NCBI RefSeq assembly: GCF_000012985.1
Contig: NC_007645.1
Span: 62,001-126,000 of the forward strand
DNA: 64,000 bases
Direction of reading: 5' to 3'
DNA from: Hahella chejuensis KCTC 2396
GTDB lineage: Bacteria; Pseudomonadota; Gammaproteobacteria; Pseudomonadales; Oleiphilaceae
The notes below the pieces were generated by a model. The model had not been told where the DNA came from. It worked only from the letters and a program-made list of their open reading frames with translations, and did no database searches. How positions within the stretch are numbered: position 1 is the stretch's first letter; each line of letters opens with the position of its first letter. Positions 40,679 through 51,302 of this stretch are shown here, piece by piece. Made by a program: the position numbers and the translations under genes.

Positions 40679-43600
40679 ATGCTTAAGAAATGCCTATCCT
40701 TTTTCTCATTATTGATATTACTGCTGTCGCTGTCCGCCTGCGGCGGCTCTTCCAGCTCGACGGACGACGCGCCGGCGACGGATGGCGGCGCGACGCCGAC
40801 AGAACCTACGGACCCGACAGATCCCGACACACCCTCGCCGGGCGGCGATTCTGGCGCAGCGCCTAAAGTCAGCGCCGGCGGCAATCAGTATGCCGACCCC
40901 AATGTCGTATTGTCTCTCGCGGGGACGGCGGAAGCGCTGGAAGGCGCTGAAATCGTAAGCACTACCTGGGCTCAGGTGTCCGGACCGACGGTTTATCTGT
41001 CCACGCCTAACAGCCTGAGCAATATGATTCTGGCCCCTGACGTCACTAAAACCCAGACTTTGAGTTTTAAACTGACGGCGAAAGACACCAAGGGCAAAGA
41101 AAGCTCGGATATCGCCAGTATTGTGGTGGAACCGCTCGCCAGTTTCGTGCGTGTAACCGGTTCCAGCGTCGATGAGGCGGCGGGTCAGGCGACATTGAAG
41201 CTGATTCTGAACAGAGCCTCTAATGCGCCGGTCACGGTGCAATACATGACCCAGAATGGCGCCGCCGCCAGTGGCGTGGATTATGTCGCCGCTTCCGGCG
41301 CTGTCACCTTCGAGCCCGGTGAAACCGAAAAGACAATCGCCATTGAAATCATTGATGACGAAGATGAAGAGGCGGACGAGCCCTTTACTGTTCGTATCAC
41401 CGCAACGGAAAACGGCGTGGTCGCTTCCGCCGTCGGTACGGTCGTAATTCGTAATGGAATGGATACCGCGCCAGAATTGAAAGAGCAAAATATCGCCTTT
41501 ACTTCCGCTGGTCCTTTGACCGGGTTGATCGGCGATAGTCTCACTAATGTGATCGACGAAGAAACGGCGCCAGGTAGCGGAGTGGTCACCTATGCGTCAG
41601 CTGACGAAAGTATCGCGACCGTGGATATTTCCTCCGGCGTAGTGCAACTGAAGTCCGCAGGCTCCACAGTGATTACCGCCGTTAAGGCGGCGGATTCTGA
41701 ATATCAAACCGCGCAGGCGACGTATACCGTGGTCGTTGAAAAACGCCTTGGCGCGGTCACTTTCGCGACGCCTGGACCCTACGCCGTCGCTTATGAGGAT
41801 ACCTTCACCAATATCGCTACAGGCATCGGTTCTGGTGAAGTGCGTTACGCATCCAGCAATACATCCGTCGCCAGTGTGACCTCTGGCGGCGTCGTGACGA
41901 TTGTAGGTGTGGGAAGCGCTGTCATCACCTCCACGCAGCTGGCGGATGACGTTTATCTGGAGGCGACCGCCACCTACGCTATAGAAGCAGACAGAAAAAA
42001 ACTGGATCTTTCTTTCAAAGATGTCGGCCCTGTAGCGGGCGTCATCGGCGGAACTTATACCAACACCTTATTGGGTAATAAGGGCTCTGGAGCATTAACC
42101 TATTCTAGCGACAATACCGAGGTCGCCACCGTGAACGCTGAAACCGGCGTTGTGTCCTACGTTGGAGAGGGCAATGCGCATATTTCGGTAGTCAGAGCGG
42201 ATGATGAACTCTATAAAGCAGCGACGGCCACTTACTCCGTTTCGGTGGGTAGAAAAATCCAGAGTATTGCCTTTGTAAACCCTGGCCCAGTGGAAGGCGT
42301 CTATGGCGAAACGGTGAATAACCCGATCGCAGAAGGCGCTCCTGGCAGCGGCTCCGTCACTTACTCTTCCAGCAACAGCTCGGTAGCGTCCGTTAATAGC
42401 GAAAGCGGCGTCGTACAGCTTGTTGGCGCTGGCTCGGCGGTGATTACCGCGGAAAAGGCGGGCGACTCCGTCTATAGCAGCGCAATCGCCAAGTACTCCT
42501 TGACCGTCAATAAAAAGGCGCAGACGCTCTTGTTAAGAAATCCTGGCCCTATTGAAACCAGCGTTGGCGAAGTGGTTATAAACGGTGTGACGGTCGTTGA
42601 AGGCGGCTCCGGCGCGTTGTCCTACAGCGCTGATGCGGAAACAGCGATTGAACTGGATAGAGAGACCGGTGAGGTTCACGCCGTCAGCGTAGGCGAAGCC
42701 CTGATTACAGTGACCAAAGCCGGCGACGCCAACTATAACGCAGCCTCCGTGAGCTATCGGGTTATCGTTGGCAAAGGCGTGCAGTCGATCGCCTTTATGA
42801 CGCCAGGTCCGGTTGAATCCATCTATGGCGATACCTACACCAACGTCATTACCGGCGCGGCCCCAGGGACTGGCGCTGTTACCTATGCGTCCGGCAACGA
42901 AAGTATTGCAACGGTAAATAGCGCCTCAGGCGAGGTGAACATGGTCGGTGTCGGCAGTGTCGTGATTACCGCCACCAAGGCGGCGGACACTAATTATGAA
43001 AGTGCGGAAGCCAGTTACACCATTAATGTGGCGAAGAAAACGCCGACCCTTACTTTTGACAGCGCTGGCCCTCTCAGCCTGACCATCGGAGAAACCCTGA
43101 CCAACGTCGCTACCAGTACTTCTACCGGGGCGGTGACTTATAGCGTCGGCGACGCCGCTATCGCATCAGTCGATTCGGAAAGCGGGCTGGCGACAGCGCT
43201 GGCGGTTGGAAGCACATCGGTTATGGCGACTCAGGCGGCGGATGCGAATCACAACGCCGCAAGCGCCAAATATTCACTGAATGTCACCAAGAAAACGCAA
43301 ACTATCGCTTTCACACAGCCAGGTCCTCTGGATGGCGTTTATGGCGATACGCTGACCAACGCCATTAAAGACGGCGCGCCAGGAACAGGCGCTGTTCTCT
43401 ACGCTTCCAACAATACCAGCGTTGCGACGGTAAATAGCGAAACCGCTGTGGTGCAATTGGTAGGTGTTGGAACGGCGACGATCACCGCCACCAAAGAAGC
43501 CGATGCGACCTATGAAGCCGCTACCGCCAGCTATACGATCACCGTGGCCAAGAAGAACCAGGTCATTGCTTTCCTTAACCCAGGGCCGATATACGCTAAC

Positions 43601-45022
43601 GTGGAAGAGGCGGTCAATAACCCTGCTTCCACCGTCGAGGGCGGTGTGGGCGTCATTACCTACAGCGTCGATAATGCTGATGTAGCTGTAGCCGCTGCAG
43701 GTGAAGGCGTATTCAACATTGTTGGGATTGGCGAGGCCGTGGTGACCGCGACTAAAGCGGGAGATGCGAATCATAATCCCGTGTCTCTTCAATACCGAAT
43801 CTCTGCAATAGAGGTGGACGTGGGAGCAGCGGCTTTTGTCGGCGCCGCAGATACGCAGGTGCAGCTGACATATGGCGCTGGCAGTTCCGTAAGCGACCTG
43901 TCGCTTATCAGTTCGACTAATCCAGAGTGCGATATCGCCAATTACAGTCTGTGTGAAAATGGAGCGATGACGCTGATTAATAGCGATACCGTGACTGAGA
44001 GTGCGGCATTGTTAGACAGAACCGCCTATTACTGGCTGATACATGGAGAAAGAAATAGCGCGTCAGCCACCATTAGGCAAGGAATCGGGGACTCAGGGAG
44101 CGAAGTTACGACGATTCGCGCCGCGCTTCCGCGTCGCTATGATCATCAGCTCGTTGAGTTCAACGGGACTCTGTGGATGATTGGCGGAATGGCGTTTGAT
44201 GGTGAAGTCAGCGTAGCCAACGCTGAGGTTTGGAACTCCACTGATGGCGTGCTTTGGACCCGGAGAGCGATTATTGAATCGGAAGGAATGAACCAGCACA
44301 AAGTCGTTGTTTTCGACAGTAAGCTGTTTGTTTATAACGAAGGGGTGATTTGGTACTCCACCGATGGAGTGGCTTGGAATAAACACTCTGCGACCCCTGC
44401 TTTTGGCGTTAGGGAGGCGCAAGGATTTGCGGAGTTTCAGGGCGCACTCTGGTCTATTGGTTACGTTTCCGGGGATGACTTCCCCTCCATGTGGAGAAGC
44501 ATCGATGGAGTTGAGTGGATATTGCAAGGCGACATCGACGGAGTGGGCTTGCGCAGCGACTATCAGATGGCTGTGCATAATGATCAAATATGGCTAGTGG
44601 CGGATGCTGAGGGAAGTCCATTACTGCAAAACGATGTGTGGGCCACATCCGATGGCGTTAATTGGAGTTCGATCCTGGCGGCGGGTGAGACGCCCTTCAC
44701 TGGCAGGACAGACCACACTTTGTTTGAGCACGATGGAAAGCTCTGGATTATCGGCGGTAAGGGGTATGAGTTCGCCGTGTTCAACGACATCTGGACTTCC
44801 GTGGATGGTAAAACGTGGACGTCTGCGGATGCTCCGGCCTTTACTGCAAGGTTTTCCCATCAGGCGCTAGTCTTCGGCGGGCAGCTATGGCTATTCGGCG
44901 GCAGGTCCGACTCAACTGAAATGGTTCCGCTTAGCGATACGTGGCGCTCAGCAGAGGGTAGTAACTGGCGCAGATTAGTGAGAGCTAAATTCTCACTCTT
45001 GGCGGAATCTACACCCATGTAA
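40679..45022 (+). CDS. Giant lipoprotein with PKD-like, Calx-beta, nine Ig-like repeats and Kelch-like end
   Basis: 1447 residues. A lipoprotein signal (lipobox LSAC, Cys about 21) is followed by a Ser/Asp/Thr/Pro linker. Then come a PKD/REJ-like domain (about 60-155; WAQVSGPTVYLS), a Calx-beta domain (about 160-262; ITFEPGETEKTI-type motif, DDEDEEADEPF), nine tandem bacterial Ig-like repeats of about 85-88 residues (about 272-1043), and a C-terminal region (about 1120-1440) with Kelch-like blades: LWMIGGMAFDGEV, LWIIGGKGYEFAV, LWLFGGRSDSTEM. AGGGAG precedes the ATG. Likely a surface-exposed adhesin or binding protein working with the barrel protein encoded just upstream. Binding partner unknown. 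Confidence 0.85.
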   Translation: MLKKCLSFFSLLILLLSLSACGGSSSSTDDAPATDGGATPTEPTDPTDPDTPSPGGDSGAAPKVSAGGNQYADPNVVLSLAGTAEALEGAEIVSTTWAQVSGPTVYLSTPNSLSNMILAPDVTKTQTLSFKLTAKDTKGKESSDIASIVVEPLASFVRVTGSSVDEAAGQATLKLILNRASNAPVTVQYMTQNGAAASGVDYVAASGAVTFEPGETEKTIAIEIIDDEDEEADEPFTVRITATENGVVASAVGTVVIRNGMDTAPELKEQNIAFTSAGPLTGLIGDSLTNVIDEETAPGSGVVTYASADESIATVDISSGVVQLKSAGSTVITAVKAADSEYQTAQATYTVVVEKRLGAVTFATPGPYAVAYEDTFTNIATGIGSGEVRYASSNTSVASVTSGGVVTIVGVGSAVITSTQLADDVYLEATATYAIEADRKKLDLSFKDVGPVAGVIGGTYTNTLLGNKGSGALTYSSDNTEVATVNAETGVVSYVGEGNAHISVVRADDELYKAATATYSVSVGRKIQSIAFVNPGPVEGVYGETVNNPIAEGAPGSGSVTYSSSNSSVASVNSESGVVQLVGAGSAVITAEKAGDSVYSSAIAKYSLTVNKKAQTLLLRNPGPIETSVGEVVINGVTVVEGGSGALSYSADAETAIELDRETGEVHAVSVGEALITVTKAGDANYNAASVSYRVIVGKGVQSIAFMTPGPVESIYGDTYTNVITGAAPGTGAVTYASGNESIATVNSASGEVNMVGVGSVVITATKAADTNYESAEASYTINVAKKTPTLTFDSAGPLSLTIGETLTNVATSTSTGAVTYSVGDAAIASVDSESGLATALAVGSTSVMATQAADANHNAASAKYSLNVTKKTQTIAFTQPGPLDGVYGDTLTNAIKDGAPGTGAVLYASNNTSVATVNSETAVVQLVGVGTATITATKEADATYEAATASYTITVAKKNQVIAFLNPGPIYANVEEAVNNPASTVEGGVGVITYSVDNADVAVAAAGEGVFNIVGIGEAVVTATKAGDANHNPVSLQYRISAIEVDVGAAAFVGAADTQVQLTYGAGSSVSDLSLISSTNPECDIANYSLCENGAMTLINSDTVTESAALLDRTAYYWLIHGERNSASATIRQGIGDSGSEVTTIRAALPRRYDHQLVEFNGTLWMIGGMAFDGEVSVANAEVWNSTDGVLWTRRAIIESEGMNQHKVVVFDSKLFVYNEGVIWYSTDGVAWNKHSATPAFGVREAQGFAEFQGALWSIGYVSGDDFPSMWRSIDGVEWILQGDIDGVGLRSDYQMAVHNDQIWLVADAEGSPLLQNDVWATSDGVNWSSILAAGETPFTGRTDHTLFEHDGKLWIIGGKGYEFAVFNDIWTSVDGKTWTSADAPAFTARFSHQALVFGGQLWLFGGRSDSTEMVPLSDTWRSAEGSNWRRLVRAKFSLLAESTPM
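41492..43808 (+). repeat. Nine tandem coding repeats of about 260 bp
   Basis: Each unit encodes an Ig-like domain with a recognisable skeleton: AFxxPGP at the start, YGDTxTN near 12-20, GAVTYASxNxSVATV in the middle, and GSAVITATKAAD with YTIxVAKK at the end. Units 4, 6 and 8 are the most alike; units 5, 7 and 9 have drifted. Alternation of the similar units suggests past duplication of pairs. Confidence 0.85.
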
Positions 45023-45045: not shown

Positions 45046-45070
45046 AAACGCCGGCCCTGCGCCGGCGTTT
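45046..45070. terminator. Bidirectional terminator between convergent operons
   Basis: AAACGCCGGC, loop CCTGC, GCCGGCGTTT, followed by a T-rich tail on both strands. It serves the giant lipoprotein gene (plus) and the DUF692 operon (minus). Confidence 0.85.
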
Positions 45071-45074
45071 TCAT

Positions 45075-45818
45075 TTAAACCAGACGCAAGGCCCGTTCAG
45101 AGATCAGTCTTTCCACCACGCGAATTTTATGTGGGCCTTTCTCTAACAGGCTGTCCAGAGGCTGTGGCGCTGCGCATTGATGCAGAACCTCCCTTTCCAT
45201 TGTAGTGGCGGCGCGCCAGTATTTTCTTACGCCAGGGGCGACCAACACAGGATGGGGTCCCTCAGCATTAGGAAGGGGCTGATTCAACATCAGGGCGCAG
45301 AGTAGCTTTTCCGGCGCTGCGGGAAACTCTATCAATTGCGACATGGGGGCGACGGTTACGGAAAAGTTGCGGCAGCGATTGCTGCTTGGCTCCATAGGGC
45401 TGACTGGAGAAAGCCGATATTCGTGAATCGCTTTCAGCGCGCTCTCGAACATGGTCAGCGCATGTAGCAGGGGGTCCTTGGTATGCTCGCAGATGAAAGT
45501 TTTGAACGACATCGCCTCCGGTACAAAATAGAGTGAACGGCAAGGCGTCGCGCGCATGTATTCCTCCACCAGCGCTTGCAACTGTAGGCGATCCAGCAGA
45601 CGCAGGGTCAGCGGCGCGGCGATTTGTAGTCTGGCTTTACGCCACCATTTTTGCACATCGCAGGTGACCTTAAATCCCTTTGACGCCTTTAGGGCATGTA
45701 GCCAGGTACGTTCCTCCGCGCTTAAATCCAGCCGGTTTAGATCCATGTTGTCGGCGGCGTCGGAGGTGTGGGAGTGAATCATCTCCACCATCGCGATTTG
45801 TAGATCATGTAACGGCAT
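45075..45818 (-). CDS. Partner protein of the DUF692 enzyme (RiPP recognition/maturation type)
   Basis: 247 residues. The N-terminal half is helical with conserved Trp/Leu/Arg positions (LSAEERTWLHALKASKGF, VQKWWRKARLQIAAPLTLRLL). The C-terminal half (about 170-247) looks like a winged-helix peptide-binding domain of the kind fused to DUF692 partners (PVLVAPGVRKYWRAATTME, VVERLISERALRLV). The stop-distal end overlaps the DUF692 gene by 14 bases, so the pair is translationally coupled. By analogy with HvfC/BufC/MbnC partners it should bind the precursor and present it to the enzyme. I recognise the arrangement more than the sequence, so the family assignment is tentative. Confidence 0.65.
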   Translation of the reverse strand: MPLHDLQIAMVEMIHSHTSDAADNMDLNRLDLSAEERTWLHALKASKGFKVTCDVQKWWRKARLQIAAPLTLRLLDRLQLQALVEEYMRATPCRSLYFVPEAMSFKTFICEHTKDPLLHALTMFESALKAIHEYRLSPVSPMEPSSNRCRNFSVTVAPMSQLIEFPAAPEKLLCALMLNQPLPNAEGPHPVLVAPGVRKYWRAATTMEREVLHQCAAPQPLDSLLEKGPHKIRVVERLISERALRLV

Positions 45819-46737
45819 AGCGGCGCTCCTCTATGACTGGTTGACGGTGGCGCAGCCAGATATCCCGGGCGGTCGCCAATTGTTTCTGAATGCCTCGTTC
45901 ACCGACGATATCCAGCGCCTGTTCCAGCAACTCATAGATAATCGCATTGGCGTTTGGCGCGCGCTGGAGGGTCCAGTCCAGCAATTCCCACACCGGCTGA
46001 GGGGGTTCATCGCTGTGTACGTCCAGTTGCAGGCCGTCATGGATGGCGCCGCCCGCCACATGTATTTCCACTACTTTACTCATGTCCAGGCGGCCCAGCG
46101 CCTCATAGACGTCAAAGCCGAAATTGATGGCATTGCAGTACAGGTTATAGAGATCCAGTAAGAGACCACAGGAGGTTCGTTCGGTGATGCGATTGAGAAA
46201 CTCAATCTCGTCCATTCCCGCGTCATTCGGCATATTGGGGAGGTAATAAGTCGTGTTCTCCAATAAAAACGGGGTCTGATAACGCTGCTGGATCGCCTCT
46301 ATTCGCGGACAAATAATGTTCAATGCTTCCTCCGTGAACGGCACGGGCAATTGCACGCCGGCGTGTAAGCCGACGCCGTCAGCCGTGCGTATTTGCAGAA
46401 ATCCCAGGTGCTCGCTGTGCCAATGGAACGTCTGCACGTCCGCAAAGCTATCCAGAATACGGATGTAGTCCTGATTCCAACCGCTAGCCGAGCCGATTGA
46501 CAGCCCGAGGCCATGCACGACGACGGGATACAACCGGCACCATTCGATGACTGCGCTGAGTCGATCAGGGCTAAACCCAGTCCGCCGTTGCGCGCCGTCC
46601 CAGTACTCCTGACACAGGATGTCCGGGCTGACTTCGATGAAGTCGACTGCGTCGCCACAGGCCCGTAGCAGGGGGATAAACTCAGGCTGATAGTTAATAC
46701 CGACGCCCAACTTGGGCAAGGAAGTTAAAGCGTTCAT
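45805..46737 (-). CDS. DUF692 multinuclear non-haem iron oxidase (MNIO) family protein
   Basis: 310 residues, a TIM-barrel enzyme of the family that includes MbnB, TglH and BufB, which modify cysteine in precursor peptides. Family landmarks: VGINYQPEF at the start, HGLGLSIGS, the metal-binding HWHSEHLGF, FLLENTTYYLPN, LLLDLYNLYCNAINFG, and VVEIHVAGGAIHDG. The sequence has the His, Glu, Asp and Asn residues expected for a two- or three-iron site. It lies between the putative precursor gene upstream (65 bases) and the overlapping partner gene downstream. Predicted reaction: oxidative rearrangement of Cys in the 120-residue precursor. Confidence 0.85.
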   Translation of the reverse strand: MNALTSLPKLGVGINYQPEFIPLLRACGDAVDFIEVSPDILCQEYWDGAQRRTGFSPDRLSAVIEWCRLYPVVVHGLGLSIGSASGWNQDYIRILDSFADVQTFHWHSEHLGFLQIRTADGVGLHAGVQLPVPFTEEALNIICPRIEAIQQRYQTPFLLENTTYYLPNMPNDAGMDEIEFLNRITERTSCGLLLDLYNLYCNAINFGFDVYEALGRLDMSKVVEIHVAGGAIHDGLQLDVHSDEPPQPVWELLDWTLQRAPNANAIIYELLEQALDIVGERGIQKQLATARDIWLRHRQPVIEERRYAVT

Positions 46738-46802
46738 GGTAAAGGCTCCGGCTGCTGTATCGCCGGCCCGGAAAGCCCCGGACCGGCCAAAGTGATTGGC
46801 GC

Positions 46803-47165
46803 TTATCCACCGTACAGAGTGACGTTGACGGGAATCTTGGACTGGATTTTTACCACAGGGTCCAATCCCAGACGCAGATCAAGGCCGACTAACCCGCAGG
46901 TGGGACAGCCGGACTGATTGAGAATCTGTTCCAGGATGTTCTGCAGATCCCAGATACTGACTTCGTACTGGGGATCGAATGAAGCGCTGACCGTTTTACG
47001 ATCGCGTGAAACACCGCTGTCGGTTGCAGCCGTTGCAGCGCTGGAAAAGCTGGCGATAGAAGCGGCGCCGGTTACTAACGCGGCATTGCGAAGGAAGGCG
47101 CGGCGATCGCTTTCGCGGGTTTGTGGAGGAGTGCTTGCGGATACATCATTAGTTGTGTCGGACAT
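46803..47165 (-). CDS. Putative MNIO substrate: Tat-signal precursor with a CPTC motif
   Basis: 120 residues. The N-terminus has a twin-arginine signal (SDRRAFLRNAALVTGAAS, RR at 21-22), a hydrophobic stretch, and an A-x-A site (AATAAT, about 44-49). The mature part of about 70 residues contains exactly two cysteines, 87 and 90, in SGCPTCGLVGLDLRLGLDP, and ends LYGG. There are no other Cys in the protein. A short secreted protein with a conserved-looking Cys pair directly before a DUF692 gene fits a RiPP substrate. GGAGAG precedes the ATG. It might instead be a small Tat-exported metal-binding protein. Confidence 0.7.
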   Translation of the reverse strand: MSDTTNDVSASTPPQTRESDRRAFLRNAALVTGAASIASFSSAATAATDSGVSRDRKTVSASFDPQYEVSIWDLQNILEQILNQSGCPTCGLVGLDLRLGLDPVVKIQSKIPVNVTLYGG

Positions 47166-47390
47166 CGTGTCTCTCCTTTGCGGTTGTGTTGTCTGGCGGG
47201 GCCGGGCGTAAAACGGAAAGTCCCGTTTAACAACCCCTGAACATAGAGCTTAAATCCAGAGAGACGACCGAGCAGCGCAATGCGGCGCAAAGGAATTGTG
47301 AAATACTCACGTTTGCAGGCTGATGCGAAGAAGGTAAAGATGGCGTTAAGACCCGTTGAGGTCGTGGAAACTGCAACGGGTCCTTTGCAA

Positions 47391-49985: not shown

Positions 49986-51302
49986 ATGACGGATGATAAG
50001 AAAGAACGGGGGCTGTATGAGTTGTACGCGGACGATCCGGAACGCGCGGATTATCTGGTGTTCGGACGACGCGCCCACTCCGATCGACGCGGTTTTCTGA
50101 AAGGCGCTGGCCTCGGCGCCATGGGCGCCATGTTGGGAATGGCGATTCCTTTTCATCGCAACTTTCCCTCAGGGCTGATACCCGCCGCCATGGCGGAAGA
50201 TACGGAAATTGGCCTGTTCAGCGGTAAAGACGGACTGACCCTGCTGAATGATCGCCCGATCAATGCGGAAACCCCCGCTCACCTGCTTGATGACGCGGTT
50301 ACGCCCACCAGCCGCCATTTCGTTCGTAATAACGGCGTAGTGCCGGATATTGCGCGCAGCATGGACGCGTCTGACTGGAAACTGACCATCGACGGCGAAG
50401 TGGAGAAAGTGCTGGAGCTGTCGCTGGATGAACTCAAGTCCAAGTTCAAACCGGTCACCTTGAAGCTGCAGTTGGAGTGTGGCGGTAATGGACGCGCGGC
50501 GTTCAATCCGCCGGCGAAAGGCAATCAGTGGACAGTGGGCGCTATCGGCAACGCCGAGTGGACTGGAGTGCGCTATGCGGACTTATTGAAAGCGGCGGGC
50601 GTCAAACCGTCGGCCATTTACACCGCGCATCATGGTCTGGACGGACATCTGTCCGGCGATCCCAGCAAAACCCCGATCTCCAGAGGCGTGCCCATTTCCA
50701 AGGCGATGGACCCTCACTCCATCATCGCCTACGCCATGAACGGCGAGCCTCTGCCGGCGCTGCATGGCTTCCCGGTGCGCACCATTTGTCCGGGCTGGCC
50801 GGGCTCCACCTCACAAAAATGGCTGAGCCGGATTCAGTTGCGGGACATCGTGCATGACGGCCCCAAAATGACCGGATCTTCCTACCGCGTGCCTAAATTC
50901 CCTGTGGCGCCGGGAACGCATGTTGCGGACGAGGACTACCAAATCATTGAGTCCATGCCCGTTAAATCACTGATCACCACGCCGCAAACCAACCAGACCA
51001 TCAAGACGCGCACACTGAAAGTGCACGGCCATGCCTGGGCGGGGGATAATGTGGTTAAGCGCATGGATATTTCCTATGACTTCGGCGTCACCTGGGTGCA
51101 GGCGGACCTGAAAGCGCCACCCAATCCCTACTCCTGGCAGGAGTGGTATGCGGAAGTGACTTTCCCCACCCGCGGTTATTATGAAATCTGGGCCAGAGCC
51201 ACGGATGACAAAGGCAACATGCAGCCTTTCGCGGTGAACTGGAATCCGAAAGGGTATCTGAACAACAGCATGCACCGTATTGCGGTGGTTGTGGACGCCT
51301 GA
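49986..51302 (+). CDS. sorA: SorA-type molybdopterin sulfite dehydrogenase/oxidase
   Basis: 438 residues. A twin-arginine signal (SDRRGFLKGAGLGAM, about 36-50) directs folded export. The sulfite-oxidase molybdopterin domain (about 120-320) has the molybdenum-ligating Cys in KLQLECGGNGRAAF, TGVRYADLLKAAGV, and FPVRTICPGWPGSTSQKWL. A C-terminal dimerisation domain follows (about 325-438, PQTNQTIKTRTLKVHGHAW). It oxidises sulfite to sulfate in the periplasm and hands electrons to the small c-type cytochrome encoded next. Confidence 0.92.
   Translation: MTDDKKERGLYELYADDPERADYLVFGRRAHSDRRGFLKGAGLGAMGAMLGMAIPFHRNFPSGLIPAAMAEDTEIGLFSGKDGLTLLNDRPINAETPAHLLDDAVTPTSRHFVRNNGVVPDIARSMDASDWKLTIDGEVEKVLELSLDELKSKFKPVTLKLQLECGGNGRAAFNPPAKGNQWTVGAIGNAEWTGVRYADLLKAAGVKPSAIYTAHHGLDGHLSGDPSKTPISRGVPISKAMDPHSIIAYAMNGEPLPALHGFPVRTICPGWPGSTSQKWLSRIQLRDIVHDGPKMTGSSYRVPKFPVAPGTHVADEDYQIIESMPVKSLITTPQTNQTIKTRTLKVHGHAWAGDNVVKRMDISYDFGVTWVQADLKAPPNPYSWQEWYAEVTFPTRGYYEIWARATDDKGNMQPFAVNWNPKGYLNNSMHRIAVVVDA

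Follow-up and report, generated by a model that had tools for sequence, protein, structure and literature searches.

We identified a three-gene locus in Hahella chejuensis KCTC 2396 at which a 120-residue protein, carrying a predicted twin-arginine (Tat) signal and only two Cys residues, is very probably modified in a RiPP-type manner by the MNIO (DUF692) enzyme encoded next to it. The candidate pathway proposed by the first-pass annotation is well supported, because the operon is conserved, the mature domain of the small protein is constrained, its CxxC relatives lie beside MNIO-partner fusions and none was found without an MNIO. For the whole scheme, in which the three genes would give one exported small protein with oxidatively modified Cys, we estimate a probability of about 0.5.

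Operon organization and conservation in Hahella

The window, i.e., the whole stretch of 64,000 nucleotides analysed here, belongs to a genome that consists of a single contig of 7,215,267 bp. The coordinates and lengths of the three co-directional genes, all on the minus strand, agree with those reported at first, and so does the 14-bp overlap between the partner and MNIO genes (45805-45818), which was found again in other Hahella species. The features of the operon and its flanks are as follows.

46803..47165, minus strand: putative precursor or substrate protein, 120 aa, only two Cys (sequence; orthologues in three other Hahella species)
45805..46737, minus strand: MNIO (DUF692, PF05114) enzyme, 310 aa (Pfam match and ligand alignment)
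45075..45818, minus strand: DUF2063-like partner (PME-type 2), 247 aa (profile-profile comparison)
47172..47179, minus strand: Shine-Dalgarno sequence AAAGGAGA 5' of the precursor ATG (sequence; identical in four species)
47298..47310, minus strand: inverted repeat GTGAGTATTTCAC, possible operator (inside an upstream block identical in four Hahella species)
45046..45070, no strand assigned: terminator-like perfect 10-bp stem, conserved, between the operon and the convergent gene

The inverted repeat upstream of the operon is possibly the site of a regulator. The terminator-like stem was absent from the output of one scan. A uridine kinase gene lies upstream of the operon, about 225 bp away, and the gene convergent with it (40679-45022) encodes a putative lipoprotein of 1447 aa in which Calx-beta and Kelch domains occur together with repeated Big_2 domains.

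Of six further Hahella species that were examined, three (G001, G004 and G005) have orthologues of all three genes, and the order precursor-MNIO-partner is kept in these species and the window genome. G003 and G006 have the uridine kinase without the operon next to it. The three-gene set also occurs in Hahella sp. HN01, whose substrate and enzyme are sequence-identical to those of G004 and which is probably the same genome. Across four Hahella species, a 68-residue domain of the small protein is 100% identical and the signal region drifts.

46806..47009, minus strand: residues 53-120, identical in four Hahella species (alignment; dN about 0, dS 0.62-0.84)
46896..46907, minus strand: C87-P-T-C90 motif, proposed modification site (both Cys kept in all homologues)

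Whereas dN is about 0 for residues 53-120, it reaches 0.04 in the enzyme, 0.09-0.10 in the partner and 0.09-0.12 in residues 1-52; no other part of the operon is thus as constrained as the mature domain. Since the gene order is kept in four species and the mature part has a dN of about 0, the operon is more than a chance arrangement, and we rejected chance adjacency.

The MNIO enzyme and its partner

The assignment of the 310-aa protein to DUF692 was borne out by Pfam (PF05114, E 5.8e-56, 190 bits against a cut-off of 25), and the enzyme matches the solved structures of TglH (8hci) and 3bww. The iron ligands of TglH are H71, H107, E151, D184, N187, H216, D229, H231 and E258 (PMC10880893), and all nine align to identical residues.

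45805..46737, minus strand: predicted Fe ligands of the 310-aa enzyme, H75, H110, E160, D195, N198, H226, D239, H241 and E269 (alignment to TglH)

For the catalytic Asn73 of TglH, the alignment shows no equivalent in the Hahella enzyme. Scores were far under the cut-off of every NCBIfam MNIO equivalog model, such as BufB (152.7 bits, cut-off 310), HvfB (148, cut-off 360) and ApyH (102, cut-off 400). In the maximum-likelihood tree the Hahella enzyme is on the side of TglH and the L036/Thiodiazotropha enzymes described below, and all bufferin-type enzymes lie across a branch with 92/87 support; it is outside the bufferin/captophorin clade. The branches of this tree are long and the place of the enzyme within the TglH/Thiodiazotropha side is uncertain. 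A single clade of the Hahella and Thiodiazotropha-type MNIOs received 38% support only and is not claimed.

For the 247-aa partner, DUF2063 membership fell below the Pfam cut-off (15.7 versus 27.2 bits) and was recovered by profile-profile comparison; the NCBIfam HvfC model gave 17.3 bits versus a cut-off of 142. When a profile of four partner orthologues was compared with 77 bufferin-type partners, residues 2-132 aligned (prob 94%, P 9e-8), the aligned region opening with the typical LHDLQ N-terminus. Thus, the partner is DUF2063-like by profile comparison only, and it fits what has been termed PME-type 2 (PMC12452194). A PDB sequence search with the partner profile returned no matches. AlphaFold models of the small protein and the partner rested on shallow alignments and were poor (pLDDT 42 for each; pTM 0.28 and 0.35, respectively); a PDB fold search with the partner model gave only noise, and no conclusion was drawn from either model.

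The twin-arginine signal

The 120-aa protein has exactly two Cys residues, C87 and C90 of the CPTC motif, as well as the twin arginine noticed in the first-pass annotation.

47028..47165, minus strand: predicted twin-arginine signal region, residues 1-46 (SDRRAFLRNAALVTGAAS..., AxA before residue 47; sequence, rule-based scan)
47100..47105, minus strand: twin arginine R21-R22 (sequence; RR conserved in four species)

The N-terminus shows the features of Tat substrates, i.e., RR-x-[FL]-L within SDRR(A/T)FLRN, a 22-residue uncharged stretch and an AxA site, and the motif is kept in all four Hahella species. A simple twin-arginine rule that the small protein fits was satisfied by 5 of 533 background ORFs, and tatC is present in the window genome. 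The sequence SDRRAFLRN is closely like SDRRGFLKG of the protein encoded at 49986-51302. The latter has a typical Tat signal and was assigned by eye to the sulfite dehydrogenases (SoxC-like). The TIGR01409 score of the small protein was 13.4 bits, under the cut-off of 16.7. Considering these features together, Tat export of the small protein seems quite probable.

Signal-less relatives beside other MNIOs

A search for MNIOs within the class revealed a gammaproteobacterium (G189, locus L036) in which two signal-less small proteins (...ILDRLGCTACCSGWDIRFDI...) precede an extended MNIO. Thiodiazotropha (L099-L101 and L103) and a Chromatiales MAG (L102) came to light when genomes were scanned with the enzyme alignment; in each, an 80-81-aa protein (...VLDQLGC(S/G/A)NCHSGHDIRFDI...) overlaps or abuts an MNIO with a C-terminal extension. 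This extension aligns with DUF2063 partners (profile comparison, prob 88%), and therefore the partner is fused to the enzyme in loci of this type. The Hahella partner and the fusion domain each match DUF2063 partners separately; their direct profile comparison gave a prob of 0.5%, which is not significant. The relatives lack a signal, and export is not a trait of the wider family.

Several results support a remote homology between the Hahella protein and these signal-less proteins that would extend beyond CxxC itself. A profile built from the L036/L099-L103 proteins alone had a single match in the whole 7.2-Mb genome, the gene at 46803-47165, although with an E of 0.157 that is weak in itself; hhalign of the small protein against the relatives gave P 1e-5; and shuffles of the mature sequence reached the real score against the homologue profile in 0 of 20,000 cases, or in 3 of 20,000 with GCPTC fixed. 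Besides both Cys, G94, D96 and R98 (G-x-D-x-R after the motif) are kept in all homologues. Accordingly, the initial description of a CPTC core needs widening, as conservation is not limited to the motif: because only 3 of 20,000 shuffles with GCPTC fixed reached the score and the whole 68-residue domain is invariant in Hahella, the substrate looks like a modified small protein more than a short core.

Gathering of homologous operons showed that the small protein is co-conserved with the MNIO in Hahella and that its relatives lie directly before MNIO-partner fusions. Homologues lacking a DUF692 gene, which had been named as evidence against the proposal, were not found in two draws of 369 genomes each, one from the class and one from the phylum, partly overlapping and both including the window genome. 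In these draws the window genome and G189 were the only ones with convincing matches to the joined-family profile, in each case next to an MNIO, and the family is rare. Weak matches (E 8.6e-4 to 0.05 in one draw, and others in the second draw) were set aside as chance; the three inspected were one secretion-type ATPase and two unrelated frames. A scan of 85k GTDB genomes with the small protein detected no close homologue, and none was found in plasmids or viral contigs.

In G189 (L134:5017-11407), a Buf2 operon (substrate, MNIO, DUF2063) is followed after about 0.9 kb by the related operon with its two CTACC substrates and MNIO-partner fusion, and an FTR1/cytochrome c iron-permease-like gene adjoins on the other strand. 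These neighbours are a weak hint of metals. Also observed was a Planctomycetota MNIO (L098:2937-4828) preceded by a membrane protein of 351 aa whose C-terminus is rich in Gly and Cys; this protein resembles the TIGR04222 type of MNIO-associated protein.

Proposed pathway and alternative explanations

We propose that the MNIO and its DUF2063-like partner would bind the 120-aa substrate in the cytoplasm, where one or both CPTC cysteines, at the end of a predicted helix in the 74-residue domain, would be oxidised. Directed by the N-terminal twin-arginine signal, the Tat translocon would then carry the folded, modified domain out, and cleavage by signal peptidase I after A46 would leave a mature 74-residue protein that may act in the periplasm on a soft metal, e.g., copper. 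Tat transports folded cargo only; therefore, the route itself would hold the substrate inside until it is modified. Within this scheme, we infer Cys as the target, the timing, the export and the metal, and we observe the operon, the family and ligands of the enzyme, the Tat-type N-terminus, the constraint and the homologues. Cys is the likely target of the MNIO, and metal handling has slightly less than an even chance; the strengths given here to modification, Cys target, Tat export and metal handling are judgements and not computed values. In its fuller form, which we hold tentatively, the proposal adds that the demand for folded cargo acts as a checkpoint, that Hahella gained the Tat signal within a rare family of cytoplasmic CxxC substrates, encoded separately from an MNIO-partner fusion, and that the Cys change is not a thiooxazole.

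It is unlikely that the MNIO alters a residue other than Cys, e.g., the Asp or Arg of G-x-D-x-R, and that both Cys are disulfide or metal ligands of an ordinary CxxC protein. The conservation of G94, D96 and R98 and the position of the enzyme outside the bufferin clade agree with such a target, and modification of Asp, Asn or Phe has been described for small MNIO clusters (PMC12452194). On the other hand, most characterised MNIO systems act on Cys (PMC12452194), and C87 and C90, the sole Cys of the protein, are strictly conserved.

An N-terminus of 50 residues that serves as an enzyme-recognition leader and merely resembles a Tat signal also appears unlikely; the product would then be cytoplasmic, as presumably in the signal-less relatives. 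The existence of these relatives, the TIGR01409 score and the description of adjamnio-2 precursors, discussed below, as lacking Sec signals in a 2025 survey (PMC12452194) are consistent with a leader. However, RR-x-F-L, the uncharged stretch and AxA are all there, the near-match to a typical Tat N-terminus occurs in the same window, and the N-terminal stretch changes faster (dN about 0.1), as is expected of a signal and not of a recognised leader.

A bufferin-like copper buffer, with both Cys converted to 5-thiooxazoles as in bufferins and other captophorins, is improbable. Bufferins, oxazolins and captophorins share with the Hahella locus the enzyme superfamily, the gene order and a signal-bearing, periplasm-directed substrate (PMC12452194, PMC13097082), and the same genome has two bufferin operons: a Buf2-type one with a 6-Cys, Sec-type substrate (C1:6731410-6735189, assigned by eye from the Cys pattern) and a Buf1-type one with a 4-Cys, DUF2282-like, Sec-type substrate (C1:635395-639180, also assigned by eye). 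However, captophorins are defined by PME1 partners and by DUF2282, Lys-Cys or Cys-Lys substrates (PMC13097082), and these systems differ in their Sec signal, PME-type 1 partner, several Cys and enzyme clade. The 120-aa substrate has no DUF2282 or Buf2 family match in Pfam or NCBIfam, and its Cys occur only in GCPTCG, without Lys-Cys or Cys-Lys. We rejected bufferin/captophorin membership on substrate type, partner type and enzyme clade. Since GCPTCG is neither Lys-Cys nor Cys-Lys and the enzyme is outside this clade, thiooxazole chemistry should not be assumed.

Finally, the small protein might be no substrate of the MNIO, but a metallochaperone or redox protein with a CxxC motif that is exported by Tat independently and has the MNIO as a chance neighbour. 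Many metal and redox proteins do contain CxxC. This reading is nevertheless very improbable, because the homologues immediately precede MNIO genes in unrelated genera and every homologue detected had an MNIO beside it.

Because Tat carries folded proteins, an MNIO-modified, Tat-tagged substrate would offer one answer to the problem of premature export and a direct way to test it. How signal-bearing MNIO substrates escape export before modification is a question posed by the 2025 survey (PMC12452194). The locus would also be a minimal system of three genes and two cysteines for learning the chemistry of this MNIO clade. If the proposal is true, the Tat signal gained in Hahella would have turned a cytosolic CxxC product into a periplasmic one.

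Comparison with known MNIO systems

The TglHI/pearlin 3-thiaglutamate system resembles the Hahella locus in all Fe ligands, the HxAGGxxHxG...DxH stretch near the third iron and a PME-type 2 partner (PMC10880893). It differs in that TglH acts on an appended C-terminal Cys and has the catalytic Asn73 that the Hahella enzyme lacks (PMC10880893), and the Hahella operon has no PEARL or other tgl genes. TglH-type carbon excision by the Hahella enzyme was considered and rejected. The DAG-RiPPs of ChrH-like MNIOs also place MNIO substrates on a general export pathway via a swapped N-terminus, but theirs is the lipoprotein (Sec/Lgt) route and not Tat (PMC12636315); Tat would thus bring a third export route to the MNIO family, after Sec and the lipoprotein pathway. 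Adjamnio-7 has a CxxC motif beside an MNIO; it lacks a signal peptide and has a Novilysobacter representative, and was compared by description only (PMC12452194).

The closest system is adjamnio-2, i.e., the putative precursors of MNIO SSN cluster 2, whose representative is WP_127967852.1 of Hahella sp. KA22 and which have PME-type 2 partners and no predicted Sec signals (PMC12452194). It shares with our locus the genus, the gene order with a Cys-containing gene directly before the MNIO, the absence of a Sec signal and a partner that is DUF2063-like under the signature cut-off. Because the window genome has two further MNIO loci, a Buf1 and a Buf2 operon, the H. chejuensis locus is very likely adjamnio-2 by elimination, with WP_127967852.1 compared by description only. 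The suggestion of an undescribed product in the first-pass annotation therefore probably does not stand, as the locus is almost certainly listed already as this putative precursor family (PMC12452194). The main text of the survey, in contrast, mentions neither Tat or twin-arginine nor the CPTC motif (PMC12452194), and a literature search among open-licence papers found none describing a Tat-routed MNIO substrate. Signal-bearing MNIO substrates pair with PME-type 1 partners (PMC12452194); the combination of a Tat signal on the substrate and a PME-type 2 partner would therefore be an exception to this rule. Thus, the locus itself is rare and known in kind, and its Tat signal is probably a new feature for MNIO substrates.
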